Below, in pieces: positions 3,632 through 62,960 of a stretch of 64,000 bases of DNA; position 1 is the first letter of the stretch, and the number at the start of each line of letters is the position of its first letter. A model generated the notes under the pieces. The model ran no database searches. It had not been told where the DNA came from and saw only the letters and a program-made list of their open reading frames with translations. The DNA lies in contig NZ_CP109592.1 of NCBI RefSeq assembly GCF_036250675.1, forward strand, positions 2,790,001-2,854,000, read 5' to 3'. The translations under genes and the position numbers were made by a program. This stretch comes from Streptomyces sp. NBC_01689 (GTDB lineage Bacteria > Actinomycetota > Actinomycetes > Streptomycetales > Streptomycetaceae).

Positions 3632-3636
3632 CGTGC

Positions 3637-5430: not shown

Positions 5431-5831
5431 GTTCGTGATGGCCTTTCGTGAATCCGGCGTCATTGCCGGAGACGTCAGTGTGGGACCGGGTGGGCGGCCA
5501 CGGAACGGCCCACGGCGATGTCGGCGGGAACGCCAAGGAGTGGCGGAATCGGGAAGGACGACGGGGGGGTGGGACGGGGCCGGCGGGGTGTCGGCGGGAC
5601 GGGCCCGGTGGGCGGACGGGTGACGGTCCGGTGGCGGACCGACCGGCCGGTGGGCGGGTGGACCGACCGGCCGGTGGGCGCACGGGCTGTGGGACTTCCG
5701 GGTCCTGGCTCCGGAGTTCCCGGCTCCCCGCTCCCGGCGCCCGGAGCCCGGCTCCGGGACTGTGGGCAGCCGGACGGGCGGACGGCCGGGGCGTCTCAAA
5801 GACCTTTCGTCGCACCGATGTTGAGGGGATG
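5431..5831. promoter_or_regulatory. 401-bp intergenic region: leader of the monooxygenase operon, inverted repeat and short tandem repeat
   Basis: Gene-free spacer between the CoA-transferase operon end and the monooxygenase start. It must hold the promoter of the monooxygenase operon, but I find no convincing -35/-10 pair. TCCGGC-N6-GCCGGA (5453-5470) is an operator-like palindrome 23 bases before the ATG. A 21-bp unit beginning GGACCGACCGG occurs twice in tandem (5636-5656 and 5660-5680). Nearer the other end, AAAGACCTTT (5798-5807) is a near-palindrome. The rest is G-rich low-complexity sequence. Confidence 0.5.
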
Positions 5832-6506
5832 TCAGGCCGGAGTGGGCAGGAGCGGCAGGTCGAGGCGGCCCGCGAGGTCGTCGACGGTGACGCCGAAGGT
5901 CTCGCGCACCGTGACGCCCGCCGGGGTGATGTCGAAGACCGCGAGGTCGGTGTAGACGCGGTCGACGCAGTTCAGCCCGGTCAGCGGGTAGGTGCACCGT
6001 GGGACCAGCTTGGGGACGCCGTTCTTGGTGAACAGCGTCATCATGACGAAGACCTGCCGGGCGCCGATCGCGAGGTCCATGGCTCCGCCCACGGCCGGGA
6101 TGGCGTCGGGTTCGCCGGTGTGCCAGTTGGCGAGGTCCCCGGCCGAGGAGACCTGGAAGGCGCCCAGCACGCAGATGTCCAGATGGCCGCCGCGCATCAT
6201 GGCGAACGAGTCGGCGTGGTGGAAGTAGGCCGCCCCGGGCGGTTCGGTGACCGGGACCTTGCCGGCGTTGGTGAGATCGAGGTCGATCTCCTCGCCCTGG
6301 GCGGCGGGGCCCATGTTGAGCATGCCGTTCTCCGTGTGGAGCACCACACCGGAGTCGGCCCGCAGGTGGTCGGCGACCAGGGTCGGCTGCCCGATGCCGA
6401 GGTTGACGTACGCGCCGTACGGAATGTCGCGGGCCACCAGGGCGGCGATACCGGACTTGCCCAGCGGGCCGCGCCCGCTCTCGGCCGTGGGTCGGTTCGG
6501 GGTCAC
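5832..6506 (-). CDS. pcaJ: 3-oxoadipate CoA-transferase subunit B
   Basis: A 224-residue beta subunit of a family I CoA-transferase. It has the GIGQPTLVADHL segment and the catalytic glutamate in HTENGMLNMGP (about residue 59), which carries the covalent CoA thioester. With subunit A it moves CoA from succinyl-CoA to 3-oxoadipate. Its start overlaps the end of subunit A by four bases (GTGA-type overlap). The same fold serves 3-oxoacid and glutarate transferases; the adjacent thiolase and hydroxyquinol genes decide for 3-oxoadipate. Confidence 0.88.
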   Translation of the reverse strand: MTPNRPTAESGRGPLGKSGIAALVARDIPYGAYVNLGIGQPTLVADHLRADSGVVLHTENGMLNMGPAAQGEEIDLDLTNAGKVPVTEPPGAAYFHHADSFAMMRGGHLDICVLGAFQVSSAGDLANWHTGEPDAIPAVGGAMDLAIGARQVFVMMTLFTKNGVPKLVPRCTYPLTGLNCVDRVYTDLAVFDITPAGVTVRETFGVTVDDLAGRLDLPLLPTPA

Positions 6507-7171
6507 GAGGCAGCCTCCTGCACCACGCGGTCGACATAGATGCCCGGCGTCACCACGGCCTCGGGGTCGATCGCCCCGGTGTCCACGATCTCGCGGACCT
6601 GCGCGACCACGGTGGTCGCGGCGGTGGCCATGACGGGCCCGAAGTTGCGGGCGGTCTTGCGGTAGACGAGGTTGCCCATGCGATCGGCCCGGTGGGCGCC
6701 GATCAGCGCGACATCGCCCTTGATCGGGTACTCCAGGACGTGGGTACGGCCGTCGATGACGCGGGTCTCCTTGCCCTCGGCCAGCAGGGTCCCGGCTCCG
6801 GTGGGGCAGAAGAAGGCGCCGATACCGGCGCCCGCGGCCCTGATCCGCTCGGCGAGACTGCCCTGCGGCACCACTTCCAGCTCGATCTCGCCGGCCCGGT
6901 ACAGGCCGTCGAAGACGTACGAGTCGGACTGCCGGGGGAAGGAGCAGACGACCTTGCGGACCCGCCCCTTCGCCAGCAGCGCGGCCAGTCCCGTGTCACC
7001 GTTGCCCGCGTTGTTGGACACGACCGTCAGTTCCTTCGCGCCCTGGCGGATGAGCGCGTCGATCAGCTCGACCGGCATCCCGGCCATCCCGAAACCGCCG
7101 ACGAGCACCGTGGAGCCGTCCTCGATCCCGGCGACCGCCTCGTCGGCGTGGGCACACACGCGCACGCTCAT
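6503..7171 (-). CDS. pcaI: 3-oxoadipate CoA-transferase subunit A
   Basis: A 222-residue alpha subunit of the same CoA-transferase. It starts at the ATG at 7171, which overlaps the thiolase stop by four bases (ATGA). The N-terminal glycine-rich CoA-binding segment VLVGGFGMAGMPVELIDALI and the NNAGNGDTGLAALL motif are typical of PcaI/ScoA proteins. A longer frame from upstream runs through the thiolase gene and is rejected. It forms a heterotetramer with subunit B. Confidence 0.88.
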   Translation of the reverse strand: MSVRVCAHADEAVAGIEDGSTVLVGGFGMAGMPVELIDALIRQGAKELTVVSNNAGNGDTGLAALLAKGRVRKVVCSFPRQSDSYVFDGLYRAGEIELEVVPQGSLAERIRAAGAGIGAFFCPTGAGTLLAEGKETRVIDGRTHVLEYPIKGDVALIGAHRADRMGNLVYRKTARNFGPVMATAATTVVAQVREIVDTGAIDPEAVVTPGIYVDRVVQEAAS

Positions 7172-8400
7172 CGGCCCGCCCCCGTGACGTTCTCCAGGAC
7201 GACGGTGAGTGCCTGGCCCACCCCGATGCAGATCCCCGCGACGCCCCATCGCTCACCGGACTCCTTCAGCCGGTGTGCCAGGGTGCCCAGGAGCCTGCCG
7301 CCGGAGGCGCCCAGCGGGTGACCGAGCGCGATGGCGCCGCCCTTGGCGTTGACGATCGCCGGGTCGATCCCCCACGCGTCCACACAGGCCAGCGCCTGCA
7401 CGGCGAACGCCTCGTTGAGTTCGACCGCGGAGACGTCCGACCAGGTGATGCCGGCGCTCTTCAGGGCCCGGTTCGCGGCCTCCACCGGCGCGAAGCCGAA
7501 CATCTGCGGATCCACCGCGAAGACTCCGCGGCCGGCGACGCGGGCCAGCGGAGCGACTCCGATCCGCTCCGCGGCCTCCCCGGAACCGAGCAGTACGGCC
7601 GAGGCCCCGTCACTCAGCGGCGAGGAGTTGCCCGCCGTGATCACACCGTCGGGGCGGAAGGCAGGCTTGAGCGCGGCGACTTTGTCGATCGTGGACCCGG
7701 ACCTGACGCCCTCGTCACGGTCGAGGGTGCCGCCCTTCCCGTCGGTCGCGACCGGCACCACCAGATCGTCGTAGAAGCCCGCCGCCCAGGCGGCCTCGGC
7801 GAGGTTGTGGGAGCGGACGGCGAACTCGTCCTGCCGCTGCCGCGGGACGGCGAAGCGGTCGGCCAGCTGTTCGTTGGCCTCGCCCAGCGAGACCGTCCAC
7901 TCCTTCGGCATCCGCTCGTTGACCAGCCGCCAGCCCAGAGCGGTCGACACGGCCGTCACGTCACCGACGGGAAAGCCGCGCTGGGGCTTGGGCAGCACCC
8001 AGGGGGCCCGGGTCATCGACTCCACGCCGCCGGTGAGGACGATGTCGGCGTCACCGGTCTCGATCGCGCGGGAGGCCATGATCGCCGCGTCCAGGGAGGA
8101 ACCGCACAGCCGGTTGACGGTCGTGGCGGGGACCGAGGTGGGCAGTCCGGCCAGGAGCACGGCCATCCGCCCGACGTTGCGGTTGTCCTCGCCGGCGCCG
8201 TTGGCGTTCCCCCAGACCACGTCGTCGATGCCGGCCGGATCGAGCTCCGGCACCTTGGCCAGGACCCCGTTCACGGCGAGCGCCGCGAGGTCGTCGGGAC
8301 GTACGCCGGCGAGAGCGCCGGAGAACCGTCCGAAAGGTGTTCTTGCCGCTGCGTACACGTAACTGTCGGTCACGCCTTCACGGTAGGTCGCCCGCTTCAT
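7168..8400 (-). CDS. pcaF: 3-oxoadipyl-CoA thiolase (acetyl-CoA acetyltransferase family)
   Basis: A thiolase of about 400 residues that cleaves 3-oxoadipyl-CoA to succinyl-CoA and acetyl-CoA, the last step of the 3-oxoadipate pathway. The nucleophilic cysteine is in VNRLCGSSLDAA, the histidine in GGAIALGHPLGASGGR and the second cysteine in GICIGVGQAL. The start is uncertain. The ATG at 8400 has a weak GGA signal upstream. The GTG at 8373 gives the usual family N-terminus (VTDSYVYAAARTPFGRF) but its GAAGG lies only one base away. It is the first gene of a three-gene operon with both transferase subunits and is divergent from the LysR gene. Confidence 0.9.
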   Translation of the reverse strand: MKRATYREGVTDSYVYAAARTPFGRFSGALAGVRPDDLAALAVNGVLAKVPELDPAGIDDVVWGNANGAGEDNRNVGRMAVLLAGLPTSVPATTVNRLCGSSLDAAIMASRAIETGDADIVLTGGVESMTRAPWVLPKPQRGFPVGDVTAVSTALGWRLVNERMPKEWTVSLGEANEQLADRFAVPRQRQDEFAVRSHNLAEAAWAAGFYDDLVVPVATDGKGGTLDRDEGVRSGSTIDKVAALKPAFRPDGVITAGNSSPLSDGASAVLLGSGEAAERIGVAPLARVAGRGVFAVDPQMFGFAPVEAANRALKSAGITWSDVSAVELNEAFAVQALACVDAWGIDPAIVNAKGGAIALGHPLGASGGRLLGTLAHRLKESGERWGVAGICIGVGQALTVVLENVTGAGR

Positions 8401-8455
8401 GGCGTCCAAGACATAGTCGGGAGTGATTGATAAAGCTGTCTTATAAGCTGATGTC
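8401..8455. promoter_or_regulatory. Divergent control region of the LysR gene and the thiolase operon
   Basis: A 55-bp spacer, unusually AT-rich for this window. CTTATAAG (8440-8447) is a perfect 8-bp palindrome, and AAGCTG-type half sites recur on either side of it. LysR regulators usually bind such AT-rich dyads between themselves and their target operon. TATAAG at 8442-8447 sits eight bases before the LysR ATG, so that gene may have a leaderless transcript. Confidence 0.55.
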
Positions 8456-9349
8456 ATGGAATTGCGTCAGGCCCGCTCCTTCCTCACGCTCGCGGAGGAG
8501 TGCCACTTCGGGCGCGCGGCGACCCGCCTGCACGTGGCCCAGCCGGCCCTTTCCCAGCAGATCAAGGCGCTGGAACGCGAGCTCGGTGTCGCCCTCTTCC
8601 ACCGCTCGACCCGGCACGTGGAGCTCACCGAGGCGGGCCGCCAGCTCACCCCCTACGCCCGCACGCTGGTCACCGAGGCCGAACGCGCGCGGGTCCACAT
8701 GGCCGAGCTCGCCACCGGCCGCGCCGGCCGGGTCTCCGTCGGCTTCATCGGGACCGCCACCTACGACGTCCTGCCCCGGGTCGCCCGCACGGTCCGGTCC
8801 GAGCTGCCCCACCTCACCCTCGACCTGCGCGGCGAACTGATCACCCCGCGGCTCGTGGACGGCCTGCTCACCGGCGCCTACGACCTCGCCGTGTCGCGGG
8901 CCGGCGCCTCCGGGACCGCGGCCGAGGGGCTGCACATCACGCCGCTGCGCACCGAGCCCCTGATGGCCGTGCTGCCGTCCCACCACCCCCTGGCGTCCGA
9001 CCGTCCGGTCGCGCTGGGCGCGCTGGCCGACGAACCCTTCGTCATCCACCCCTCGCAGCCGCGGTCGGCGATGTACGACCGGGTCCTGTCCGCCTGCGCC
9101 CGCGCCGGTTTCCAGCCCTCGTCGCTCGTCGAGGTCGGCGAGACCGCGACCCTCGTCGTCCTCGTGGCCGCGGGGCACGGCGTGGCCCTCGTGCCGCAGT
9201 CGGTACGGAGTCTGCGGCTCGACGGCGTGACCTACGTCCCGCTCGCCGAGACGGAGACCATCGATCTCACCCTGGCCCGCCGCGCGCGGCGCGACCCGCC
9301 GGCCGTACGGCACGTCGCCTCGATCATCGAAGCGTGCGTGCGCGACTGA
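8456..9349 (+). CDS. LysR-family transcriptional regulator
   Basis: A 297-residue LysR-type regulator. The N-terminal winged helix has the classic pattern RQARSFLTLAEECHFGRAATRLHVAQPALSQQIKALERELG with LFHRSTRHVELTEAG, followed by a linker helix and a periplasmic-binding-like effector domain. It is transcribed away from the thiolase/CoA-transferase operon, the standard arrangement for a LysR activator and its target. The likely inducer is a pathway intermediate such as an oxoadipate or muconate-type dicarboxylate, which is inference. The stop is six bases from the convergent SWIM gene. Confidence 0.92.
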   Translation: MELRQARSFLTLAEECHFGRAATRLHVAQPALSQQIKALERELGVALFHRSTRHVELTEAGRQLTPYARTLVTEAERARVHMAELATGRAGRVSVGFIGTATYDVLPRVARTVRSELPHLTLDLRGELITPRLVDGLLTGAYDLAVSRAGASGTAAEGLHITPLRTEPLMAVLPSHHPLASDRPVALGALADEPFVIHPSQPRSAMYDRVLSACARAGFQPSSLVEVGETATLVVLVAAGHGVALVPQSVRSLRLDGVTYVPLAETETIDLTLARRARRDPPAVRHVASIIEACVRD

Positions 9350-9355
9350 ACGGGG

Positions 9356-11989
9356 TCAGAACTCCTCCGGTGTGCCGAGGCCGGTGAGGGCGCCGACCGG
9401 GTCGAGGTCGGGGGTGCCGCGCGGCCACCAGTCGTTCTGACCGGGTTCCGACTCGTAGGCGTACCAGAGACCGTCGTGGCCCAGGCGCAGTTGGGCGTGG
9501 CCGCGGGGGTGCGTGAGGCGGTTGCGCCAGGGACGGAACGCGGGGAGGTCGGCGGCGAGCAGCAGCGGACGGGCCCGGTCGAAGCGTCCCGCGGGCGGGT
9601 CCCAGGGCTCTTCGAGGACGCTCAGCCCCTCGATGCCGCCCTGCCGCCAGGCGGCGACCGCACGCGCGAGGTCGGCCGTGGTGCGGCCGGTGGCCGAGGC
9701 GAGCGAGGAGTAGAGGGCGCGGGTGGCCGCCGTGAGTCCGGAACCCGGGCGGGCCGCGGCGAGCCGGACCGCGTCCTGCCAGAGCGTCAGGTCCGCGACC
9801 GGGTCGCGGCCCGCGGTCAGCAGCGCGTGCGCGCGGGCCGCCGCGTCCGTGGCCAGCTGGTCCAGCGCGAACGGGTCGGGACCGCCCGGCGCTCCCGGGT
9901 AGGTCGGCGGCTGCTCGGGGTGCGCGGGCGCGGGCAGGGGTACCGGGAGGGGAGGCAGGCTCCGGCGGGCCAGGGCGTCCCGGGCCCGCACTCCGGGAAG
10001 CGGCGCCGGCTCCCGCTCCTGGGCGGCACGCGCGGCCCGGGCCGCGTTGCGCCGGGAGAGCCCGTCGAGCAGTTCCCGCTCGCCCCGGCCACGCAGCAGG
10101 AGCAGGACGAACGGGTCCTCGTCCAGCAGACGTGCCGTCTCGTAACAGAGCGCCGCCGCGTGTTTGCAGGGGTGTCCGTGGTCGGGGCAACTGCAGCGCG
10201 GTACGAGGTCGGCGGGGCCGGGGAGCAGGTCGACCCCGCAGTCGGCGAGCGAGCGGGGCATCTCCTTGTCGAGCAGCGCCGCGATGTGGCCGGGCCGCTC
10301 GGCGGCCGCGTCCAGGAAGCGGTCCCAGTCCTTGTCGTCCAGTGTCCGCAGGGCGACCTGGGCGCGGTAGGGACGCGGACGGCTGCCGTGCACGTACGCC
10401 AGCACCAGGCCCGGTGTGACGGTGACGGCGTCGACCCGCCCCTTGTCCGCGTAGGCCCGGCCCCGCGCCAGCCGCGCCGGGTCGAGCGCGCCCTCCTCCA
10501 GGGCGCTCACCCAGGCGTTCCCCCACCAGGTCCGCGCGAACGCCGCCGTGTCCGGACTCCGTGCCGGGAGCGCGGCGAACGTACGGCGCAGTTCTCCGTC
10601 GCGCGCCGACGACCCCATCGACCGCGGCAGCCGGGCCGCACTCCGCTCCCCCGGTCCGCCCGAGCCGTTCTCGGAGGGCGCCGGCGTCTCGGGGGGCTCC
10701 GTCGCCCCGGGGGCCGGGGTCGGCCCGGAGAGCGCGTGTGGGGTGCCGGTGCCGGCGGAGGGCTCGGTGCCGACGGGGGTGGCGGCGTCGGCGGGGGTGC
10801 GGGCGTCGGCAGGGGAGCCGGTGCCGGTCGGCGTTTCGGTGCTCGCGGGGGTCTCGGTGCCGGTCCCCGGGCGTCGGACGGTCCCCGTTCCCTGGATGGG
10901 TGTCCCGGCCGTCTCCCCCGCCTCGGCGGGCTCGGACCCTGCCGTGGTGGTGCGGGGCTCCTCCGAGGGCGCCGGCCGGTGGTCGCGTGCCGCCGTGCCG
11001 GAGTCGTCCCGGAGGGCGGCGGTACGTTCGCCCGGCGGCGGTGCGGTGCCGGGGCCGGGCCGTCGCGTCGTCCGGGGCCGGGGAGCGGTGTCGTCGGGCA
11101 GCGCGAAGGCTTCGGCGAGGAGATCCCGTACGTCCCGGGTCCGGGTGCCCGGAGCGTGGCCGCGCGGGGTCCGCCGGGCCGGGGAACCGGTCGGCGGTGT
11201 GCGGTCGGCGGAACGGCGCCGTGGCTCGGGCGCTCCGCCCTCGGCGTCCGTCCGGGCCTGCCGGGCTTCACCACGGGCGGCGCGCAGGGCCTTGCGGGCG
11301 ACGTCACCCGGGCGGGTGGCGCCCTGAGCCGTACCGGTACCACCCTGGTCCGCCGGTCCGTTCGCGTCCGCCGGTCCGTTGGCGTCCGCGGGGGTGGATG
11401 GGCGTGCCGCCGAAGCTTCCTCGGGCGTCGCTGACCACGGTGTCGGCCCGGAGGCACGTTCCGCGGCAGGCTTTGCACCGGCCCCGGCACCGGCACCGGG
11501 GCCTGCACCAGCACCAGGGACGCTCCCCCGCGCGGTGGCGCGACGCAGCGCCTGACGGGCCGCGTCGCCGGGCCTGCTGCCCGGAGGGACCGGGGCGACC
11601 GGGGCGACGGGGAGCACCGGAGGTGTCCCGGGCGGCGAGCCCGGCTCCCCCTCGGCCGTCAGGTCTCTCCCCTCGCGCTCCCGCGCGGCCCGCAGGGCAC
11701 GGCGGGCCGCGTCGGCGGGACGCGCGCCGTCGGTCGCGGGGCGGGACGTGCCGTCGGCACCCGCCTCTCCCGGTCCGGGCGACACGTCCGGAGCCGCCGG
11801 AACCTCCGCGCCCGCCGTCACGTCCGCCCCCGCGGGCGCATCCGGGGCCACCGGTGCGCCGGGCCCCGCGGGTACGCCGGGCCGCGCCGGTACGTCCGCC
11901 GCGCCCGGCGCGTCGGGGTTCCCCGTCGACCGGGGCCGTCCGTCCGGGCCGGTGGGCTCCGGCCGTCCCTCGTCCGTGGATGCGCTCAC
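9356..11989 (-). CDS. SWIM zinc-finger protein with long disordered, repeat-bearing N-terminus
   Basis: An 877-residue protein starting at a GTG with AGGAGG four bases upstream; GTGA overlaps the stop of the SNF2 gene. Residues 1-460 are Pro/Ala/Gly/Thr-rich and probably disordered. They carry four copies of a short Arg-rich helical motif close to RPGDAARxALRxA, near residues 90, 139, 226 and 283. From about 465 the sequence is folded. The SWIM finger CxC...CxH is C599, C601, C608, H610 (PRCSCPDHGHPCKHAAAL). SWIM proteins commonly pair with SNF2 ATPases in actinobacteria. DNA or protein binding is likely. The cellular role is not known to me. Confidence 0.85.
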   Translation of the reverse strand: MSASTDEGRPEPTGPDGRPRSTGNPDAPGAADVPARPGVPAGPGAPVAPDAPAGADVTAGAEVPAAPDVSPGPGEAGADGTSRPATDGARPADAARRALRAAREREGRDLTAEGEPGSPPGTPPVLPVAPVAPVPPGSRPGDAARQALRRATARGSVPGAGAGPGAGAGAGAKPAAERASGPTPWSATPEEASAARPSTPADANGPADANGPADQGGTGTAQGATRPGDVARKALRAARGEARQARTDAEGGAPEPRRRSADRTPPTGSPARRTPRGHAPGTRTRDVRDLLAEAFALPDDTAPRPRTTRRPGPGTAPPPGERTAALRDDSGTAARDHRPAPSEEPRTTTAGSEPAEAGETAGTPIQGTGTVRRPGTGTETPASTETPTGTGSPADARTPADAATPVGTEPSAGTGTPHALSGPTPAPGATEPPETPAPSENGSGGPGERSAARLPRSMGSSARDGELRRTFAALPARSPDTAAFARTWWGNAWVSALEEGALDPARLARGRAYADKGRVDAVTVTPGLVLAYVHGSRPRPYRAQVALRTLDDKDWDRFLDAAAERPGHIAALLDKEMPRSLADCGVDLLPGPADLVPRCSCPDHGHPCKHAAALCYETARLLDEDPFVLLLLRGRGERELLDGLSRRNAARAARAAQEREPAPLPGVRARDALARRSLPPLPVPLPAPAHPEQPPTYPGAPGGPDPFALDQLATDAAARAHALLTAGRDPVADLTLWQDAVRLAAARPGSGLTAATRALYSSLASATGRTTADLARAVAAWRQGGIEGLSVLEEPWDPPAGRFDRARPLLLAADLPAFRPWRNRLTHPRGHAQLRLGHDGLWYAYESEPGQNDWWPRGTPDLDPVGALTGLGTPEEF

Positions 11990-32492: not shown

Positions 32493-33842
32493 CTAGGCGT
32501 TCCGGGACAGGAGCACACCGGCCGGCTCGGTGAACCGGCCCTCGGACAGCACGCGTTCGCCGCGCAGCCAGGTCGACTTCACCACCCCGCTGAGGGTCTT
32601 GCCCGCGTAGGCCGTGACCCGGTTGCGGTGGTGCAGGGCGGCGGGGTCGACGGTGAACGTCTCGTCGGGCGCGAAGACGGCGAAGTCGGCGTCGAGGCCC
32701 GCCCGGACGGCCCCCTTGCGGTGGTCGAGGCCGACCAGCCCCGCGGTACGGGTGGACATCCAGCGGACGACGTCCTCCAGGCCGTGCCCCCGTCCGCGCG
32801 CCTCGGTCCAGACGGCCGACAGGCTCAGCTGGAGGCCCGAGATGCCGCCCCAGGCGGTCGCGAAGTCGTCCGTCTTCAGGTCGGCCGTCGACGGCGAGTG
32901 GTCGGTGACGACGCAGTCGATCGTGCCGTCGGCCAGCGCCTGCCACAGGAGGTCCTGGTTGGCCGCCTCGCGGATGGGCGGGCAGCACTTGAACTCCGAG
33001 GCGCCGTCCGGGACTTCTTCGGCGGTGAGGGTGAGGTAGTGCGGACAGGTCTCCACGGTGAGCCGGACACCGTCGGCCTTCGCCGCGGCGATCAGCGGCA
33101 GCGCGTCGGACGACGACAGGTGCAGGACGTGCACGCGCGCGTCGAGCCGCCGGGCCTGCGCGATCAGGTTCTCGATGGCGGTGTTCTCGGCGTCCCGCGG
33201 GCGTGAGGCGAGGAAGTCCGCGTACCGCCGGCCGGCCCGGTGAGGGGCGGCGTCCAGGTGGTGCGGGTCCTCCGCGTGCACGATCAGCAGACCACCGAAA
33301 CCGGAGATCTCGGCCAGGGACCGGGCGAGCCTGTCCTGGTCGAGCTCCGGGAACTCGTCCACCCCGGACGGCGACAGGAAGGCCTTGAAGCCGAACACAC
33401 CGGCGTCGTGCAGGGGGCGCAGGTCCTTGACGTTGTCGGGCAGGGCGCCGCCCCAGAAACCGACGTCGACGTGGGCCTTTGCGCGGGCGGCGTCCTGCTT
33501 CGTACGGAGGTGGCCGACCGTCGTCGTCGGCGGGAGGGAGTTGAGCGGCATGTCGACGATCGTGGTGATGCCACCGGCCGCGGCGGCGCGCGTCGCCGTC
33601 CAGAACCCCTCCCACTCCGTACGGCCCGGGTCGTTGACGTGCACGTGCGTGTCGACGAGGCCGGGGAGCAGGACGTCGTCGCCGAAGTCCTCCAGGCGGA
33701 CGCCGGGCGGCACCTCGGCGTCGTGCGGGAGCACGGCCGTGATCCTGCCGCCGGCGACCGCGACCGAGGCGGCGCGTGTCCCCTCGGGAGTGATGACACG
33801 CGTCGAACGCAGCATCAGTTCGACCCATCCGACCTCGGACAC
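32493..33842 (-). CDS. allB: Allantoinase
   Basis: A 449-residue cyclic amidohydrolase. The binuclear metal site is built from [16 protein letters not shown], the carbamylated lysine in [31 protein letters not shown] and VVTDHSPS. It opens the hydantoin ring of allantoin to give allantoate. The GTG at 33842 has GAGAGGGG five bases upstream. It is divergent from the IclR gene and shares the control region 33843-34110 with it. Confidence 0.95.
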
Positions 33843-33902: not shown

Positions 33903-33919
33903 TTCAACGTTCTGTTGAA
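33903..33919. promoter_or_regulatory. TTCAAC-N5-GTTGAA box at allB
   Basis: TTCAACGTTCTGTTGAA is a perfect 6-bp dyad with a 5-bp gap, 61 bases before allB. The same box lies at the uraD operon, katA and aceB promoters. On the minus strand its right arm forms a possible -35 (TTGAAT); no clear -10 follows. Confidence 0.7.
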
Positions 33920-34110: not shown

Positions 34111-34926
34111 GTGCCGACGTCCCGCGCCAGCGACGCCCCAGCGCAAAACGCCTCCGCCAAGTCGTCCGCGCCGAGCGGTGGTGTCCAGTCCCTGGAGCGC
34201 GCCTTCGATCTGCTCGAGCGCATGGCCGACGCCGGCGGCGAGGTCGGCCTGAGCGAGCTGTCCGCCAGCAGCGGACTGCCGCTGCCCACCATCCACCGGC
34301 TGATGCGCACCCTGGTGGTCTGCGGTTACGTACGCCAGCAGCCGAACCGCCGGTACGCGCTCGGTCCCCGGCTGATCAGGCTCGGCGAGTCCGCGTCCCG
34401 GCTGCTCGGCACCTGGGCCCGCCCCTATCTCGCGCGCCTGGTCGAGGAGACCGGCGAGACGGCGAACATGGCGCTGCTCGACGGCGACGAGATCGTCTAC
34501 GTGGCGCAGGTGCCCTCCAAGCACTCCATGCGGATGTTCACCGAGGTCGGCCGCCGCGTGCTGCCGCACTCCACGGGCGTGGGCAAGGCGCTGCTCGCGG
34601 ACACTCCGGCGGACGAGGTGCGCGCCCTGCTCGCCCGTACCGGCATGCCCGCGGCGACCGAGAAGACGATCACCACGCCGGACGGCTTCCTCGCGGCGCT
34701 GGAGGAGGTGCGCCGGCTCGGCTACGCGGTCGACGACAACGAGCAGGAGATCGGCGTGCGATGCCTCGCCGTCTCCGTGCCCGGCTCCCCCACCGCCGCC
34801 GCCCTCTCGATCTCCGGCCCCGCGGGCCGGGTCACCGACGCGGCGACGGAGAAGATCGTGCCCGTGCTGCGACAGGTGGCCGTGGAACTGTCGGAGGCCC
34901 TCGCCAGTTCCGGCACGAACGCCTGA
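34111..34926 (+). CDS. allR: IclR-family regulator of allantoin/glyoxylate metabolism (AllR type)
   Basis: A 271-residue IclR protein: a disordered N-terminus, winged helix at about residues 25-85 (QSLERAFDLLERMADAGGEVGLSELSASSGLPLPTIHRLMRTL) and an effector domain from 95 on (GETANMALLDGDEIVYVAQVPS, VLPHSTGVGKALLA, VRCLAVSVPG). The GTG at 34111 follows AAAGGA. It is divergent from allantoinase. In S. coelicolor an IclR protein in this setting, AllR, represses allantoin genes and is released by pathway intermediates; I recall this without details. The tandem boxes at its own promoter suggest autoregulation. Confidence 0.88.
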   Translation: MPTSRASDAPAQNASAKSSAPSGGVQSLERAFDLLERMADAGGEVGLSELSASSGLPLPTIHRLMRTLVVCGYVRQQPNRRYALGPRLIRLGESASRLLGTWARPYLARLVEETGETANMALLDGDEIVYVAQVPSKHSMRMFTEVGRRVLPHSTGVGKALLADTPADEVRALLARTGMPAATEKTITTPDGFLAALEEVRRLGYAVDDNEQEIGVRCLAVSVPGSPTAAALSISGPAGRVTDAATEKIVPVLRQVAVELSEALASSGTNA

Positions 34927-38136: not shown

Positions 38137-38190
38137 ATCAACAAATCATTGAACTTCCACCATGAGGAAACTACTATCCACTGTTCAGAA
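38137..38190 (+). promoter_or_regulatory. Malate synthase promoter carrying both operator classes
   Basis: -35 TTGAAC (38149-38154), a 17-bp spacer and -10 TACTAT (38172-38177) make a near-consensus promoter. ATCAAC-N5-ATTGAA (38137-38153) overlaps the -35. TTCC-N7-GGAA (38155-38169) lies between -35 and -10. ATCC-N7-AGAA (38176-38190) overlaps the -10 and start site, again 21 bp after the first box. Confidence 0.8.
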
Positions 38191-38275: not shown

Positions 38276-39901
38276 ATGTCCGCACCAGCGCCGTCCCCGC
38301 TGGCCATCGTCGACGCCGAGCCCCTGCCCCGGCAGGAAGAGGTCCTCACGGACGCGGCCCTCGCCTTCGTGGCCGAGCTGCACCGGCTGTTCACGCCCCG
38401 GCGTGACGAGCTCCTCGCCCGCCGCGCCGAGCGCCGCGCCGAGATCGCCCGCACCTCCACGCTCGACTTCCTCCCGGAGACGGCCGCGATCCGCGCGGAC
38501 GACTCCTGGAAGGTGGCCCCGGCCCCGCCGGCCCTGAACGACCGCCGGGTGGAGATCACCGGCCCCACCGACCGCAAGATGACCGTCAACGCCCTCAACT
38601 CCGGTGCCCGGGTGTGGCTCGCGGACTTCGAGGACGCCTCCGCGCCCACCTGGGAGAACGTGGTCCTCGGCCAGGTCAACCTGATCGACGCCTACACCCG
38701 GAACATCGACTTCACGGACCAGGGGTCCGGCAAGTCGTACGCCCTCAAGGCCGATGAGGAACTCGCGACCGTCGTCGTGCGCCCGCGTGGCTGGCACCTG
38801 GACGAGCGTCACCTCCGCGCCCCCGACGGCACCGCCGTTCCCGGCGCGCTCGTCGACTTCGGCCTCTACTTCTTCCACAACGCCCAGCGGCTGATCGACC
38901 TCGGCAAGGGACCGTATTTCTACCTCCCGAAGACGGAGTCCCACCTGGAGGCGCGCCTCTGGAACGACGTCTTCGTCTTCGCGCAGGACCACCTCGGCAT
39001 CCCCCGGGGCACCGTCCGCGCGACCGTCCTGATCGAGACGATCACGGCCGCGTACGAGATGGACGAGATCCTCTACGAACTCCGGGACCACGCCTCCGGG
39101 TTGAACGCGGGCCGCTGGGACTACCTCTTCTCCATCGTGAAGAACTTCCGTGACGGCGGGCAGAAGTTCGTCCTGCCGGACCGCAACGCGGTCACGATGA
39201 CGGCCCCGTTCATGCGCGCGTACACCGAACTCCTCGTCCGCACCTGCCACCGGCGCGGCGCGCACGCCATCGGCGGGATGGCGGCGTTCATCCCGTCGCG
39301 GCGCGACGAGGAGGTCAACAAGGTCGCCTTCGAGAAGGTCAAGGCCGACAAGGACCGGGAGGCGGGGGACGGGTTCGACGGGTCGTGGGTGGCCCACCCG
39401 GACCTCGTCCCGATCGCGATGGCCTCCTTCGACGCCGTCCTCGGCGACCGGCCGAACCAGAAGGACCGGCTGCGCGAGGACGTGTCGGTCGCGGCCGGCG
39501 ACCTGATCGCCGTCGACTCGCTCGACGCGCGGCCCACGTACGCCGGTCTGGTCAACGCCGTGCAGGTCGGCATCCGTTACATCGAGGCCTGGCTGCGCGG
39601 CCTCGGCGCGGTCGCCATCTTCAACCTGATGGAGGACGCGGCGACGGCCGAGATCTCCCGCTCGCAGATCTGGCAGTGGATCAACGCGGGTGTCGTCTTC
39701 GAGAACGGCGAGAGCGCCACCCCGGAACTCGCCCGCAAGATCGCCGCCGAGGAACTGGCCGCCATCCGTGCCGAGATCGGCGAGGAGGCGTTCGCCGCGG
39801 GCAACTGGCAGCGGGCGCACGACCTGCTGCTGACGGTGGCCCTGGACGAGGACTACGCCGACTTCCTCACCCTGCCCGCCTACGAGCAGCTCGTCGGCTG
39901 A
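38276..39901 (+). CDS. aceB: Malate synthase A
   Basis: A 541-residue malate synthase, condensing glyoxylate with acetyl-CoA to malate. The family signature [16 protein letters not shown], the substrate loop [18 protein letters not shown] and [10 protein letters not shown] are all present. The length is that of isoform A. The ATG at 38276 has AAGGAAG nine bases upstream. No isocitrate lyase is nearby, and the promoter shares boxes with the allantoin regulator and hydroxypyruvate isomerase promoters. It therefore probably serves purine-derived glyoxylate rather than the glyoxylate shunt. Confidence 0.95.
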
Positions 39902-39905
39902 GCCG

Positions 39906-40196
39906 TCATCGCTCCGAGTGGCCCAGGGACCTGCCCGGGGCCACTCGGTCGCGTACCAGCCGCTTGACCGCGGTCGGCTCCGGGAAGCCCTGCTCACGGC
40001 GGTCCCAGACCACCTCGTCGTCGACCCGGACGACGAAGACGCCGCCGGTCCCGGGCTTGAGGGACAGCTCGCCGAGCTCGGTCTCGAACGTGGTGAGCAG
40101 CTCCTGCGCCAGCCAGGCCGCGCGCGGGAGCCAGCGGCACTGGGTGCAGTACTCGATCTGCACGCGGTGCGCGCCGGTAGAGGGTGTCGTGGTCAT
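39906..40196 (-). CDS. SelT/SelW/SelH-family thioredoxin-like protein
   Basis: A 96-residue protein with the redox motif CTQC (residues 17-20, IEYCTQCRWLPRAAWLAQELLTTF) and the family segments PGTGGVFVVRVDDEVVWDRREQGFPEP. Both positions of the motif are cysteine, with no selenocysteine. Its start overlaps the HipA-like gene by ATGA. Its own 3' end contains the hairpin that terminates the convergent malate synthase gene. Confidence 0.88.
   Translation of the reverse strand: MTTTPSTGAHRVQIEYCTQCRWLPRAAWLAQELLTTFETELGELSLKPGTGGVFVVRVDDEVVWDRREQGFPEPTAVKRLVRDRVAPGRSLGHSER
39914..39948. terminator. Terminator hairpin inside the selW 3' end
   Basis: An 11-bp perfect stem (39914-39924 with 39938-39948, 13-nt loop), thirteen bases after the malate synthase stop and within the last codons of the opposite gene. 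Confidence 0.7.
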
Positions 40197-41107
40197 TCGA
40201 GATGCACCGACCAATCCTGTTCCGCCGCCGGTTTTCCGTGCAGGTCCGGCACCCGCTTGAGCCAGTTCGGACGCCCCCGTTCGGTGCGCGCCGCCCGGTC
40301 CGCGTCCTCGGCGGCGAGCTGCTCGCGGGTCGGGAAGTCCGTGGGCAGCCAGGCCGCCGACGCCTTCACCCGGGCGAGGAGATAGCCGACGTACGCGTCC
40401 CGGGCGTCGTCCGGGGTCGCGAACCCGGGCTCGTCCGTGAGCCACGCGTCCGGCACCCGGGCCGTGACCTCCCGCAGCAGCGCCTCCGTGACCTTCGGCG
40501 CGAGTTCGGCGTCCGCCGCCCGGGTGTCGGGGGCGCAGCCGCCCAGCGCGTGGTGCCGGAAGTCGTAGGCCTTCTCCGGTGCGGAGGCGTCCCAGCGGTG
40601 GTGGAAGACGAGGGCCGCGCCGTGGTCGATCAGCCACAGGCGCGGCGGCGCGACACCGAGCGTCGGCCAGATCATCAGGTTCGAGCTGTGCACCGTACGG
40701 TCGACGTTGACCGTCAGGGCGTCCAGCCAGATCACCCGGCCCGCCTCCAGCGGGTCGACGGCGAAGGTCCTGGCGGCCTCCGGCGTGAAGTCCCGCGCGC
40801 CCGGCAGGAAGTCCATCCCCAGGTTCACCCCGGCGCTGGCCCGCAGCAGGTCCTGGACCTCCTGGTGGGGCTCGTCCTCGGCGACCGCGGGATCGAAGTG
40901 CACGAGGACCAGCTCGGGGAAGCGCAGCCCGAGGGCGCGCGCCAGCTCACCGACGACCACTTCGGCGACCAGCGCCTTGCGGCCCTGCGCGGAGCCCGTG
41001 AACTTCACGACGTACGTGCCCAGGTCGTCGGCCTCGACGAGTCCCGGCAGCGAGCCGCCCTCGTGCAGGGGCTCGACGTAGCGGTGCGCGATCACTTCTC
41101 TGAGCAT
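40193..41107 (-). CDS. HipA-like kinase family protein
   Basis: A 304-residue protein resembling the actinobacterial HipA-family proteins. It has LGTYVVKFTGSAQGRKALVAEVVVGELARALGL near the N-terminus (a putative nucleotide-binding lysine), LTVNVDRTVHSSNLMIWPT (catalytic-loop-like DR..NxN) and LWLIDHGAALVFHH (metal-binding D). No HipB-like antitoxin gene is present, so a toxin role is not supported. It is followed directly by the SelW-like gene through an ATGA overlap. Substrate unknown. Confidence 0.75.
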   Translation of the reverse strand: MLREVIAHRYVEPLHEGGSLPGLVEADDLGTYVVKFTGSAQGRKALVAEVVVGELARALGLRFPELVLVHFDPAVAEDEPHQEVQDLLRASAGVNLGMDFLPGARDFTPEAARTFAVDPLEAGRVIWLDALTVNVDRTVHSSNLMIWPTLGVAPPRLWLIDHGAALVFHHRWDASAPEKAYDFRHHALGGCAPDTRAADAELAPKVTEALLREVTARVPDAWLTDEPGFATPDDARDAYVGYLLARVKASAAWLPTDFPTREQLAAEDADRAARTERGRPNWLKRVPDLHGKPAAEQDWSVHLE

Positions 41108-56403: not shown

Positions 56404-57351
56404 TCAGAGGTTGGTGAGGTCGACCGGGATGCGCGGTTCGCAGCCGTCCCGCAGGACCGTCGCCTCGATCAGCCCGTAGGGCCGGTCGGCGGCGTAGTAG
56501 ACCTCGTTGTCGTTCTCCAGCCCGAACGGCGAGAGGTCCACGAGGAAGTGGTGCTTGTTCGGGAGGGAGAAGCGGACCTCGTCGATCTCGCTCCGGTTGT
56601 TGATGATGCGCGCGCCCATCTGGTACAGGGTCTGCTGCAGCGACAGGGAGTACGTCTCCGCGAAGGCCTGGAGCATGTGCTTCCTGACCTGGTCGTAGGA
56701 CTTCTCCCAGGTGGGCATCTTCTGCTCGTCGCCGCTCCAGTTGAAGCGCCAGCGGGCGGAGACCTGGGTGGCCAGGATGCGGTCGTGCGCCTCGGGCAGC
56801 GTCGTGTACCTGTCCTTGACGAAGCCCCAGAACTCGGAGTTCGTCGAGTTCATCACGACGAGGTCCTTCAGTCCCGAGACCACCTCCCAGGTCCGTCCGT
56901 CGAAGGTGACCTGGGTGACCCGGGTCTCCTGGCCCTTGCGCACGAAGGAGTGCTTGACCTCGTCGGCGCCGATGAACCGGGAGTTGGCGTCCGAGGTCTC
57001 GATGCGCTCCCAGGCGTACTCCTCGATCCGGATGCGTGCCGTGCCGATCGGTTCCTGGCTGGTCACGAAGTGCCGGGCGAGGTGGATGCCGAACTGCTCG
57101 GCGGACTCGATGCCGTACTCCTTGGCGAAGGCGTACACCGTGTTCTTGGTGGTGTCCGTCGGCAGGACGTTGGCGTTCGATCCGGAGTAGTGGACCTCTT
57201 CCATGTCGCCGCTGAGCGCCACGGACACGTTGAGGTCCTTGATGTGATGGGTGGCGCCGTCGCGGGTGATCCTGACGACCCGGTTCTCGGCCTTGCCGTA
57301 CTGGTTCTGTCCCAGGACCACAGGGCGCGCGGGTCGGGGGGTGTCCGTCAT
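56404..57351 (-). CDS. Urate oxidase (factor-independent uricase)
   Basis: A 315-residue cofactor-free uricase made of two T-fold domains. The catalytic residues are visible: Lys20 (GQNQYGKAENRV), Thr65-Asp66 (VLPTDTTKNTVYAFAKE) and the histidine in LPNKHHFLVDLSPFG. It oxidises urate with O2 to 5-hydroxyisourate and H2O2. The peroxide explains the catalase gene in the same regulon. Seven bases separate it from the HIU hydrolase gene upstream. Confidence 0.96.
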   Translation of the reverse strand: MTDTPRPARPVVLGQNQYGKAENRVVRITRDGATHHIKDLNVSVALSGDMEEVHYSGSNANVLPTDTTKNTVYAFAKEYGIESAEQFGIHLARHFVTSQEPIGTARIRIEEYAWERIETSDANSRFIGADEVKHSFVRKGQETRVTQVTFDGRTWEVVSGLKDLVVMNSTNSEFWGFVKDRYTTLPEAHDRILATQVSARWRFNWSGDEQKMPTWEKSYDQVRKHMLQAFAETYSLSLQQTLYQMGARIINNRSEIDEVRFSLPNKHHFLVDLSPFGLENDNEVYYAADRPYGLIEATVLRDGCEPRIPVDLTNL

Positions 57352-57358
57352 GTGTCTG

Positions 57359-57757
57359 CTAGCTCCCTCGGTAAACGGAGTAGCCGAACGGGTTGAGCAG
57401 CAGCGGTACGTGGTAGTGCTCGCCCGGTGTCACGGCGAAGGTGATCGCCACCTCGGGGAAGAACACTCCGCCCGTAGCGCTGTCCCGGTTCGCGGGGGCG
57501 TCCTGCCGCGCCTCGGCTTGCTTCTTCTCGAAGTACGCCTCGACCTCGAAGTCGAGCCGTACGTGGGTCGTCCCCTCCGGCAGTGCCGGCAGGTCCTTGC
57601 ACCGCCCGTCCGCGTCGGTCGCGGAGCCGCCGAGCGGGTGCCAGCCGGCGTCGCGGCCGGAGCGGGCCGCGAGCCGCACGGCGACCTCGGCGGCGGGGCG
57701 GCCGGCGCTGGTGTCCAGGATGTGCGTGGACACGGAAGCCGTGGTGTCGGTGCTCAT
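57359..57757 (-). CDS. 5-Hydroxyisourate hydrolase
   Basis: A 132-residue transthyretin-like protein. The family N-terminus VSTHILDTSAGRPA has catalytic His12, HVRLDF lies in the middle, and the C-terminal tetrapeptide is YRGS, which distinguishes the hydrolase from transthyretin. It converts 5-hydroxyisourate to OHCU. The ATG overlaps the decarboxylase stop by four bases. Confidence 0.95.
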   Translation of the reverse strand: MSTDTTASVSTHILDTSAGRPAAEVAVRLAARSGRDAGWHPLGGSATDADGRCKDLPALPEGTTHVRLDFEVEAYFEKKQAEARQDAPANRDSATGGVFFPEVAITFAVTPGEHYHVPLLLNPFGYSVYRGS

Positions 57758-58269
57758 ACCTCTTCTTCCTCCAGGAGTCGGCCGAGGCGGATGCGGTTGA
57801 TCGCCGTCAGCTCGACGCGGACGATCTCGTACTCCCGCCCGGGTGCGTTGCCGAGGCGTTCCGCGAGCGCGTCGCGCATCTGCTCGGCGGTGCGGCCGGT
57901 GGCGCAGATCAGGAAGACATGTCCGAACCTCTCCTGGTAGGCCAGGTTCAGTTCGAGCATCTCCGCCCTGAGTTCCGCGGAGGCGCCGGCCATGCCGCGC
58001 TGCTCCCGGGAGGAGGTCGGGTCGCCGGGTCTCGGCCGCCCGATCGGCGGGTGTCCGGCCATCGCCTCCGCCAGGTCCGCCGTGGACAGCGCGGCCGTGG
58101 CGGCGTCGCTCGCGGCGAACAGGGCGTCGGGGGTGGGGTACGGGCGCCGGGCGAGCAGTCCGCGTGCCCAGGCCTCCGAGGCGCAGACCTCGAGGAGTGC
58201 GGCGTGGGCCGCCGGCTCCTCCAGGGCGTTGAACCGGGCGAGACCACCGGGTGTCGTAGTCGACGTCAC
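57754..58269 (-). CDS. uraD: OHCU decarboxylase
   Basis: A 171-residue 2-oxo-4-hydroxy-4-carboxy-5-ureidoimidazoline decarboxylase giving S-allantoin. The catalytic histidine is His73 in AGHPPIGRP, and LAYQERFGHVFLICATGRTAEQM is the conserved helix. The GTG at 58269 has GGAGG six bases upstream; an upstream in-frame start would run over the promoter. It is the first gene of the urate operon, with the start site expected near 58302. Confidence 0.94.
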   Translation of the reverse strand: MTSTTTPGGLARFNALEEPAAHAALLEVCASEAWARGLLARRPYPTPDALFAASDAATAALSTADLAEAMAGHPPIGRPRPGDPTSSREQRGMAGASAELRAEMLELNLAYQERFGHVFLICATGRTAEQMRDALAERLGNAPGREYEIVRVELTAINRIRLGRLLEEEEV

Positions 58270-58308: not shown

Positions 58309-58349
58309 AGCTAACGCCCTCGAAAACACCGCGTCAACACTTTGTTGAA
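58309..58349 (-). promoter_or_regulatory. uraD operon promoter overlapped by a TTCAAC-N5-GTTGAC box
   Basis: On the minus strand -35 TTGACG (58332-58337), a 17-bp spacer and -10 TTAGCT (58309-58314). The dyad at 58333-58349 (one mismatch) shares its right arm with the -35, so binding would block polymerase. Confidence 0.8.
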
Positions 58350-58673: not shown

Positions 58674-59291
58674 TCAGGCCTGCTTCTCCCGGTTCAGATA
58701 GTTGTAGACGGTGAAGCGGCTCACCCCGAGCGCGCCCGCCACGGTCTCCACGCCGTGCCGCACGGAGAAGGCTCCGCGCGCCTCCAGCACCCGTACGACC
58801 TCCTGCTTGGTCCTGCGGTCGAGCTCGGCCAGGGGTTTGCCGTGCTTGCGCTCCAGGGCGGCCAGGATGTGATCGAGCGAGTCGGCGAGCTGCGGCAGAC
58901 GCACGGCGACCACCTCGGCACCCTCCCAGGAGAGCACGACGTCGTCGGGCCCGGCCTCACCGGGCGCCAGCATCTCGCCCCCCATGGCGTCGACCAGCGG
59001 CTTGACCGCGGCGACGAAGGGCTCGTCCCCGGCGCCGGTCACCTGTCGCCCCCCCCCGACCACGTTCACCTGCAGCGAGACGCGCGTGGCACCGGCGGCC
59101 AGGGCCTTGCGCAGCAGCGCGTCGACCGCGTCGAGCACGGCCTCCGACCCGCCCTCCGCGGTGTTGCCGAACGGGCCGACGTCCACGGCGTCCAGCGCGG
59201 CCGCCTCGATGACCTCACGGGCGACCAGCGCGTGCGGCGGCGCCTCGTCGAGATCGAAGGGCTCGGTCGTGAACTCCACTCTCAATCGCAC
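58674..59291 (-). CDS. Putative regulator: MTH1187-like domain fused to C-terminal helix-turn-helix
   Basis: A 205-residue protein, starting at a GTG at 59291 with AGG or a TAGGTT -10 close upstream. Residues 1-80 resemble the small MTH1187/thiamine-binding-like domain (ALVAREVIEAAALDAVDVGPFGNTAEGGSEAVLDAVDALLRKALAAGATRVSLQVNV). The middle is alpha/beta. Residues 160-205 form a Fis-like helix-turn-helix (TKQEVVRVLEARGAFSVRHGVETVAGALGVSRFTVYNYLNRE). Its position between the urate operon and hyi suggests it regulates one or both. The domain assignment is by eye and should be treated as moderate. Confidence 0.7.
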   Translation of the reverse strand: MRLRVEFTTEPFDLDEAPPHALVAREVIEAAALDAVDVGPFGNTAEGGSEAVLDAVDALLRKALAAGATRVSLQVNVVGGGRQVTGAGDEPFVAAVKPLVDAMGGEMLAPGEAGPDDVVLSWEGAEVVAVRLPQLADSLDHILAALERKHGKPLAELDRRTKQEVVRVLEARGAFSVRHGVETVAGALGVSRFTVYNYLNREKQA

Positions 59292-61387: not shown

Positions 61388-61428
61388 TTCAACAAACTGT
61401 TGACGTCCATGGACCCCAAATCCAGGCT
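61388..61428 (+). promoter_or_regulatory. katA promoter overlapped by a TTCAAC-N5-GTTGAC box
   Basis: TTCAAC-AAACT-GTTGAC (61388-61404) shares its right arm with -35 TTGACG (61400-61405). CAGGCT (61423-61428) follows after 17 bp. The arrangement is the same as at the uraD promoter. Confidence 0.75.
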
Positions 61429-61502: not shown

Positions 61503-62960
61503 ATGTCGAAGCGCGTGCTGACGACCGAGTCCGGCGCCCCGGTCGCCGACAACCAGAACTCCGCCACCGCAGGCGTCGGCGGCCCGCTGCTCCTCCAGGA
61601 CCAGCACCTGCTGGAGAAGCTCGCCCGGTTCAACCGTGAGCGCATCCCGGAGCGTGTGGTGCACGCCCGCGGCTCGGGCGCGTACGGCCATTTCGAGGTG
61701 ACCGACGACGTCACGGACTTCACCTGCGCCGACTTCCTCGGCACGGCAGGCGCCCGCACCGAGCTGTTCGTACGCTTCTCGACCGTGGCCGACAGCCTCG
61801 GCGGCGCGGACGCGGTCCGGGACCCGCGCGGCTTCGCGGTGAAGTTCTACACCGCGGAGGGCAATTACGACCTGGTCGGGAACAACACACCCGTCTTCTT
61901 CGTGCAGGACCCGGTCAAGTTCCCCGACTTCATCCACTCCCAGAAGCGCGACCCGTTCACCGGCAGGCAGGAACCCGACAACGTCTGGGACTTCTGGGCG
62001 CACTCCCCGGAGGCCACGCACCAGGTGACCTGGCTGATGGGCGACCGCGGCATCCCGGCCTCGTACCGTCACATGAACGGCTACGGCTCGCACACCTACC
62101 AGTGGACGAACGCCGCCGGGGAGGCCTTCTTCGTCAAGTACCACTTCAAGACGAACCAGGGAGTGCGCTCGCTGTCGAGCGAGCAGGCGCGGGAGCTCGC
62201 CGGCAGGGACACCGCCTCCCACCAGACGGACCTGCTGCAGGCCATCGAACGGGGTGTGCACCCGTCCTGGACGCTGTATGTGCAGATCATGCCCGCGGCG
62301 GAGGCGGCCGACTACCGCTTCAACCCCTTCGACGTCACCAAGGTGTGGCCGCACCGGGACCACCCGCTGCGCCGCGTGGGACGACTCGTCCTGGACCGCA
62401 ACCCCGACGACGTCTTCGCCGAGGTCGAACAGGCCGCGTTCTCCCCGAACAACTTCGTCCCGGGCATCGGCCCCTCTCCCGACAAGATGCTCCAGGGCCG
62501 CCTGTTCGCGTACGCGGACGCCCAGCGCCACCGGCTGGGCGTGAACCACACACTGCTCGCGGTGAACGCGCCGAGGGCGACGTCCGCGCGGAACTACGGC
62601 CGCGACGGCCTCATGGCACCGGGCGGCCGGGGCCGTGCGGCGAAGAACTACGAACCCAACTCCTACGACGGCCCGGTCGAGACCGGCCGCCCGCTGTCGG
62701 CCCCGCTCGCGGTGCACGGTCACACGGGCACCCACGAGGCCCCGCTCCACACCAAGGACGACCACTTCTTCCAGGCCGGCGAGTTGTACCGGCTGATGTC
62801 GCGGGACGAGCGGTCCCGTCTCGTGGCGAACATCGCCGACGGCCTCGCGCAGGTCTCCCGGGACGACGTCGTCGAGAAGAACCTCGCCCACTTCCACGCG
62901 GCCGACCCGTCCTACGGCGACCGAGTGGCGGAGGCGGTCCGCGCCCTGCGCGAGGACTGA
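61503..62960 (+). CDS. katA: Monofunctional haem catalase
   Basis: A 485-residue clade 3-type small-subunit catalase. Catalytic His54 is in [15 protein letters not shown], Asn127 in [10 protein letters not shown] and the haem-ligand Tyr337 in [14 protein letters not shown]. The ATG at 61503 has GGAAGG six bases upstream; an earlier frame start at 61449 is rejected. It decomposes H2O2. Its promoter shares a box with the urate operon, which suggests it is made to remove peroxide from urate oxidase. Confidence 0.95.

Follow-up and report, generated by a model that had tools for sequence, protein, structure and literature searches.

A conserved dyad at purine-oxidation promoters of Streptomyces and its predicted HTH_22/UPF0045-like regulator

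A dyad of the form TTCAAC-N5-GTTGAA stands before purine-catabolism genes in a stretch of the Streptomyces sp. NBC_01689 genome, the whole of which (64,000 nucleotides) was analysed and is called the window here. Sequence comparisons show that this dyad is strongly conserved in a tight form, TTCAACA-N3-TGTTGA(C/A). It is probably the operator of a neighbouring purine-catabolism regulator, a predicted repressor in which an HTH_22 DNA-binding domain is paired with a UPF0045-like domain.

The dyad at the uraD and katA promoters

The four dyads of the window lie before uraD (58333-58349, one mismatch), katA (61388-61404, one mismatch), allB (33903-33919, no mismatch) and aceB (38137-38153, two mismatches), exactly where the original prediction had placed them. 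At uraD-hiuH-uox, on the minus strand, the operator reads TTCAACAAAGTGTTGAC, and its right arm shares the first five bases of a -35 element, TTGACG (58332-58337), which is followed at 17 bp by the -10 element TTAGCT (58309-58314); both elements are assigned by consensus match only. The genes of this minus-strand cluster are uraD (OHCU decarboxylase; 57754-58269, with the GTG start at 58269 a matter of judgement and the mechanical ORF beginning at 58329), hiuH (hydroxyisourate hydrolase; 57359-57757) and uox (urate oxidase; 56404-57351). On the plus strand, the katA operator is TTCAACAAACTGTTGAC and overlaps a consensus-matched -35, TTGACG (61400-61405), whose -10, CAGGCT (61423-61428), lies 17 bp away. 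The catalase gene itself spans 61503-62960, its start again being a judgement (mechanical ORF from 61449). As far as sequence consensus goes, the overlap of right arm and -35 claimed for these two promoters stands, TTGAC being common to operator and -35 at each.

The best 80 matches of a UraD search, which are mutually related Streptomyces loci and not independent events, carry the dyad over the uraD -35 in every case; katA is present in 39 of them, with the dyad over its own -35 in 39 of 39. Counting the window, the uraD site reads TTCAACAAAGTGTTGAC in 62 loci, TTCAACAAACTGTTGAC in 18 and TTCAACAGACTGTTGAC in one. It takes the form TTCAACAAA(G/C)TGTTGAC in 80 of these 81 loci, window included, and no two of the 81 upstream stretches (150 bp) are alike. 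When spacings of 15-20 bp are tried, the best uraD -10 sits at 17 bp in 59 of the 81 loci and at 18 bp in 22, and it is TTAGCT or TTCACT in the 15 rows read. For katA, 26 of 40 loci have their best -10 at 18 bp and 10 have it at 17 bp, TAGGCT being a common form, and the arrangement most often found in relatives is TTGACG-N18-TAGGCT, compared with TTGACG-N17-CAGGCT in the window. Two full operator copies precede katA in seven of the 40 loci (L033, L037, L041, L057, L062, L084 and L090).

An exact match to the tight pattern, TTCAACANNNTGTTGAM, is present in 30 of 31 genus genomes, none of which matches the reversed pattern. In the remaining genome, G010, the HTH gene (see below) is diverged, and a near match, GTCAACAGTTTGTTAAA, lies between it and uraD. 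Across the family, exact tight-form matches occur in 139 of 150 genomes and 16 of 17 genera. There is next to no chance that the dyad is a mere by-product of the -35 consensus and coincidence. Half of its right arm is indeed the -35 (TTGAC), but both arms are invariant or nearly so in the 81 uraD loci, where the flanks average a major-base frequency of 0.59-0.73, the reversed control matches once in the 150 family genomes, and sites occur also with TTGAA as the right arm.

Within the window, the 16 matches found at up to three mismatches exceed the 3.79 ± 2.07 (maximum 11) of 100 shuffles, a weak test since genomes of this kind favour the codon pair TTC-AAC, which encodes Phe-Asn. Phe-Asn codons may inflate the window count, and we therefore take conservation as the main evidence. 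A scan of the whole genome, which the original prediction had named as a check, finds the tight pattern exactly at two places only, uraD and katA. At up to two mismatches there are 248 forward matches and 135 for the reversed control, an excess that may be put down to chance and codon bias. Of the 32 own-genome matches examined (L001-L016 and L127-L142), a simple GC3 rule places 25 inside ORFs; besides uraD, katA and allB, those outside are L013, L015, L134 and L141. Own-genome places within one mismatch of either pattern, allB aside, are all in ORFs except L013.

The HTH_22 gene as candidate regulator

The HTH protein encoded at 58674-59291 had been put forward simply as a candidate for the regulator. 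Co-occurrence, synteny in distant genomes and a paralogue now give it stronger grounds, and from the sequence comparisons its gene is the best candidate. Of the 150 family genomes, 139 have a full HTH_22 orthologue; the exact motif is present in 138 of these 139, and 10 of the 11 genomes without a full copy lack it (Fisher p = 9e-15 if G183 is scored as a carrier of the gene). Six of the 11 have no HTH match at all (G113, G054, G057, G063, G070 and G088), three have paralogue-level matches only (G131, G158 and G098) and G154 has only a fragment of the gene. In G183, which is 71% complete, the dyad is present and the HTH fragment lies on a contig other than that of uraD. One genome, G067, has both the HTH gene and uraD, with no dyad at up to three mismatches in a 14-kb stretch.

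These figures also bear on the possibility that the dyad is bound by some other, unlinked regulator (a MarR, TetR or GntR protein, or one with a global role in nitrogen control) and that the HTH gene is only a neighbour kept or lost with the pathway. We regard this as decidedly unlikely. Since the HTH gene and uraD are linked in most cases, part of the co-occurrence comes from the two being lost together, and six of the ten genomes lacking both gene and motif are also without uox. Against this, uox survives in G113, G054, G070 and, in disrupted form, G154, none of which has a full HTH gene, and no dyad at up to three mismatches lies near uraD in the 15-16 kb inspected. Remnants of the UPF0045 or HTH part remain in G113 and G154, and one deletion may therefore have taken gene and site together. 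In G070 (L241), uraD-hiuH-uox is kept, and upstream of it an IclR-type gene, whose product is 29% identical to that of the window's allR, replaces the HTH gene, possibly a swap of regulators.

Among the 80 named loci, the HTH gene was found in 77. It is missing in L038, where the stretch begins 137 bp before the uraD match, and in L035 and L096, which have the dyad before uraD and no HTH gene in the 10 kb upstream, as an unlinked regulator would allow. In L031, L064 and G093, some 5-13 kb separate the HTH gene from the dyad, and a larger gap is therefore possible in L035 and L096; the latter also has a short match resembling the HTH tail adjoining uraD (near 9831). In L031, the HTH gene and uraD are separated by about 6.5 kb (3330-9870), and a second copy of the HTH 3' tail adjoins uraD. 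This arrangement, to which the short match in L096 may be compared, suggests that an integrative element has entered the HTH gene at its 3' end.

At the level of the class, HTH matches below 1e-12, a threshold of our own choosing, come from five of 354 genomes, in four other families. All five have the HTH gene immediately upstream of uraD or uox and the dyad in between, four times as an exact TTCAACANNNTGTTGAC and in G477 as CTCAACAAACTGTTGAC, with one mismatch. Exact matches occur in four of these five genomes versus 14 of the 349 others (p 2e-5), and the reversed control matches in seven of the 354. Four of the 14, all without a good HTH match, were viewed. The sites in G294 and G390 are inside ORFs, G503 has two intergenic sites with no evident link, and the site in G471 lies beside an HTH_22 paralogue. 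That paralogue, a PAS_6+HTH_22 protein (L284, 4950-5693), is encoded divergently from an amino-acid permease and a D-serine-dehydratase-like gene, and an exact dyad, TTCAACACAATGTTGAA, stands between. Its recognition helix is VTRYTVYNYLN, compared with V/L-T/S-R-F-TVYNYLN in the candidate and its orthologues; HTH_22 proteins with other helices (L290 and L311-L314) have no dyad at up to two mismatches in about 3 kb. Both the retention of gene, site and adjacency in five distant genomes and the dyad beside an unrelated operon of a paralogue with a similar helix argue against an unlinked regulator. Separately, one of the distant HTH genomes, G239, has a second exact dyad (L289, 5849); on one side of it a short ORF leads into a transporter-like gene, and another gene lies on the other side.

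The HTH_22 assignment rests on a profile match (PF13309; 72.3 bits, cut-off 29.6) to the part at 58674-59042, on the minus strand, which is the candidate DNA-binding portion. The helix R-F-T-V-Y-N-Y-L-N-R is invariant in 26 of 26 aligned proteins, hand-picked among the 120 listed and supplemented with P0001 and the query. The other part (59043-59291, minus strand) resembles Thiamine_BP/UPF0045 proteins and is a probable sensor. Against the PF01910 profile the window copy scores 18.2 bits, below the cut-off of 24.9, and a single-chain relative, L252, scores 40.8 bits; an alignment profile matches the solved UPF0045-type proteins 1yqh (8.6e-07) and 1lxn (9.8e-06). In a predicted structural model, confidence is high within the domains (mean pLDDT 89.5), and their arrangement is not confident (pTM 0.51). 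The search yielded 855 related proteins. Those among the 120 listed are named helix-turn-helix domain-containing, DNA-binding protein, YqgV/UPF0045 or thiamine-binding, with one heptad-repeat name.

The reading of 58674-59291 as one HTH gene holds for the window, where a single frame of 205 amino acids joins the sub-threshold Thiamine_BP match to HTH_22; in relatives, the usual form is two overlapping genes. A UPF0045-like gene separate from the HTH_22 gene was found in 101 of 101 Streptomyces sequences, of which 99 are distinct (L018 and L102 are identical, as are L074 and L106; L035, L038 and L096 are not included). The two genes overlap at an NTGA stop/start (GTGA in 86, ATGA in 14, TTGA in one), with a purine-rich stretch upstream in 93. 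This overlap and the purine-rich stretch point to ordinary translational coupling, and a programmed ribosomal frameshift, with the protein split over two frames in relatives, was ruled out by the NTGA overlaps in all 101. In the window, one frame runs across nine G on the minus strand (59049-59057), which join the two reading frames, where many relatives read GGGGAGGG; the single frame could be a real fusion or a sequencing error. Outside the family, L250 (G478, from another family) is split, and L251, L252, L253 and L254 are single chains. Both domains are present in single-chain relatives, and in L252 each scores above its cut-off.

Promoters shared with the TTCC class and further targets

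The allB gene (allantoinase; 32493-33842, minus strand) has the operator TTCAACAGAACGTTGAA on the minus strand. A dyad with up to two mismatches precedes allB in 28 of 30 genus genomes, own genome counted (31 were searched, one of them without an allB match; L380 and L387 lack such a dyad), and among 1500 mononucleotide-shuffled allB upstreams none had a best match under three mismatches. The aceB gene (malate synthase A; 38276-39901, plus strand) has a weaker operator, ATCAACAAATCATTGAA, overlapping the -35 TTGAAC (38149-38154), and in the spacer between -35 and -10 a TTCC-class palindrome, TTCCACCATGAGGAA (38155-38169, plus strand), which is probably an AllR-type site. The aceB dyad, at two to three mismatches, recurs in 17 of 19 relatives with aceB (misses L397 and L401; one further fetched stretch contained no aceB and is not counted), and the TTCC-N7-GGAA palindrome is complete in 14 of those 17 spacers and imperfect in L390, L396 and L405. 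With the dyad over the -35 and the palindrome in the spacer, two operator classes thus occupy one promoter (38149-38177 in the window). Many of the 30 allB upstreams (L358-L387) have either a TTCC-N6/7-GGAA palindrome directly behind the dyad or a GGAA-N6-TTCC or TTCC-N7-GGAA one about 100 bp farther upstream. A HipA-like kinase domain (PF20613) is also encoded near aceB, at 40193-41107 on the minus strand. The dyad had been described as an operator class defining a regulon separate from the TTCC class; the class is distinct, but the new regulon overlaps the TTCC class, since both motifs sit at the allB and aceB promoters.

This overlap raises the question of AllR, for which the window has an IclR-family gene at 34111-34926 (plus strand), allR-like and scoring under the NCBIfam threshold for AllR. 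It is very improbable that the dyad reflects a second binding mode of AllR. allR adjoins allB, the two promoters with both motifs would suit such a mode, and in three genomes of one genus (g10; L328-L330) the dyad lies between allR and aceB. Genomes discordant for AllR and the HTH gene nevertheless led us to reject AllR as the dyad binder. The exact motif is present in none of the six genomes with AllR and without the HTH gene (G113, G131, G098, G054, G057 and G070) and in six of the seven with the HTH gene and without AllR (G055, G056, G062, G163, G117 and G079, with G067 lacking it; p 0.004), absence of AllR meaning no match or only a match of about 1e-41 to 1e-43. G183 was left out of this comparison as incomplete (71%). 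In addition, hyi has a TTCC-type site and no dyad, with no site at up to one mismatch in any of 67 hyi-holding loci, window included. No allR match lies beside the dyad in the five distant HTH-uraD/uox stretches (18-19 kb).

The proposed purine-oxidation regulon holds as to its centre, but in some relatives the dyad also reaches urease, DUF6986, cyclophilin-like, malic enzyme, malate synthase/allR and GH25 genes. Further sites precede urease gamma in three genera (L160, L171, L318, L321, L350 and L354-L356), a cyclophilin-like gene (PF04126) in Streptomyces (L146, L148-L150, L164, L165, L319, L323 and L324), DUF6986 in three genera (L320, L340, L346 and L353), malic enzyme in one genus (L331, L333, L341-L343, L347, L348 and L351, with L349 assigned by a neighbouring gene), a secreted GH25 enzyme in one genus (L332, L334-L336, L338, L339, L345 and L357) and allB in L151. 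Forty distal sites, hand-chosen among the exact matches listed, were fetched. They divide into malic enzyme (nine), GH25 (eight), urease gamma (six), DUF6986 (four), cyclophilin-like (three), aceB/allR (three) and uraD (one), with single cases at L322 and L327, L337 and L344 unsettled, and L326 and L352 in an ORF or unclear. Pfam was run on one member each of the malic enzyme, GH25 (L335), DUF6986 and cyclophilin-like groups, and the others were grouped by BLAST or by the appearance of the protein start. None of these further targets has an exact site in the window's own genome.

The GH25 enzyme and the cyclophilin-like protein are not plainly purine genes, and the former is an unexpected target for a purine regulator, seen in one genus. 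Six of the cyclophilin-like loci (L146, L148-L150, L164 and L165) adjoin a gene that we read from its sequence as a cytochrome bd-type oxidase. In one Streptomyces (L322), the operator stands where a GAF/PucR-type regulator gene begins, which suggests a cascade. At L327, an exact operator stands about 180 bp upstream of a gene named moaA-like by sequence reading; xanthine dehydrogenase requires the molybdenum cofactor.

Proposed mechanism and meaning

The dyad is most likely the operator of a ligand-sensing repressor. The regulator would consist of an HTH_22 domain and a UPF0045/thiamine-binding-like domain, joined in a single chain in several actinobacterial families and encoded in Streptomyces by two translationally coupled genes. 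Most likely, a dimer obstructs RNA polymerase by binding over the -35 of uraD-hiuH-uox and of katA, and also at allB and aceB. The UPF0045-like domain would take up a small molecule, probably an intermediate of purine breakdown, and the regulator would then leave the DNA, so that urate oxidase and the peroxide-removing catalase would be switched on at the same time. Four elements of this scheme are inferred: that the protein contacts the DNA itself, that it represses and does not activate, that it senses a ligand, and that the two split proteins form a complex. The pathway runs from urate to allantoin, from there to urea and glyoxylate, and on through malate to pyruvate, and catalase removes the peroxide that urate oxidase forms.

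The HTH_22 protein might instead bind the dyad as an activator, at a class II-like site centred near -40. The constant overlap of operator and -35 at uraD and katA in aligned relatives would fit activation, which we nonetheless consider unlikely. Repression is favoured because the -35 and -10 elements are near consensus and the promoters look complete and strong unaided, and because other sites vary in their distance from the start codon, the operator of the cyclophilin-like gene lying 8-9 bp before the ATG.

Several known systems resemble this predicted repressor in part. HTH_22/YheO-like regulators (PF13309, often with PAS_6) have the same DNA-binding domain, and a PAS_6+HTH_22 relative has the same dyad adjoining it; the candidate's sensor, however, is UPF0045/thiamine-binding-like rather than PAS_6 and is usually a separate, coupled gene in Streptomyces. 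UPF0045/MTH1187/YqgV thiamine-binding proteins (PF01910; PDB 1yqh, 1lxn, 1vk8 and 2eky) match the N-terminal part of the candidate by profile, but the candidate domain is fused or coupled to an HTH, and the window copy by itself does not reach the Pfam cut-off. AllR of Streptomyces coelicolor, an IclR-family protein, controls the allantoin pathway, and an AllR-like gene is present in the window too, but the dyad does not track AllR across genomes, and the TTCC-class palindromes are the likelier AllR sites. HucR and PecS are urate-responsive MarR regulators of urate oxidation or stress genes; they belong to a different protein family and have different operators, and the candidate is likewise proposed to answer to a purine. 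The consensus of the GlnR box also differs from the dyad.

In the open-access literature searched, we found no report of the dyad motif or of the HTH_22 regulator; the AllR paper lies outside that coverage and is cited in a passage of PMC12772271. Passages of a redox-sensor study describe SCO6209-6211 as down-regulated and predict a different site there, that of SenR (PMC4991794).

More broadly, we lean towards the view that an undescribed family of UPF0045 + HTH_22 factors controls the route from purines through glyoxylate to malate, as well as urea metabolism, in several actinobacterial families by way of the single operator TTCAACA-N3-TGTTGAA, and that in Streptomyces it is split into two coupled genes whose products act as a complex. 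If true, this would give a regulatory role to the widespread orphan family UPF0045/YqgV, and a generically named protein would acquire a motif, a list of targets and a testable function. It would suggest that UPF0045-type domains can act as metabolite sensors, and show a possible coupling of urate oxidase to a dedicated catalase. The dual operators at aceB and allB would make a clean case of dual control, and Streptomyces would have, beside AllR, a second regulator for the use of purine nitrogen.
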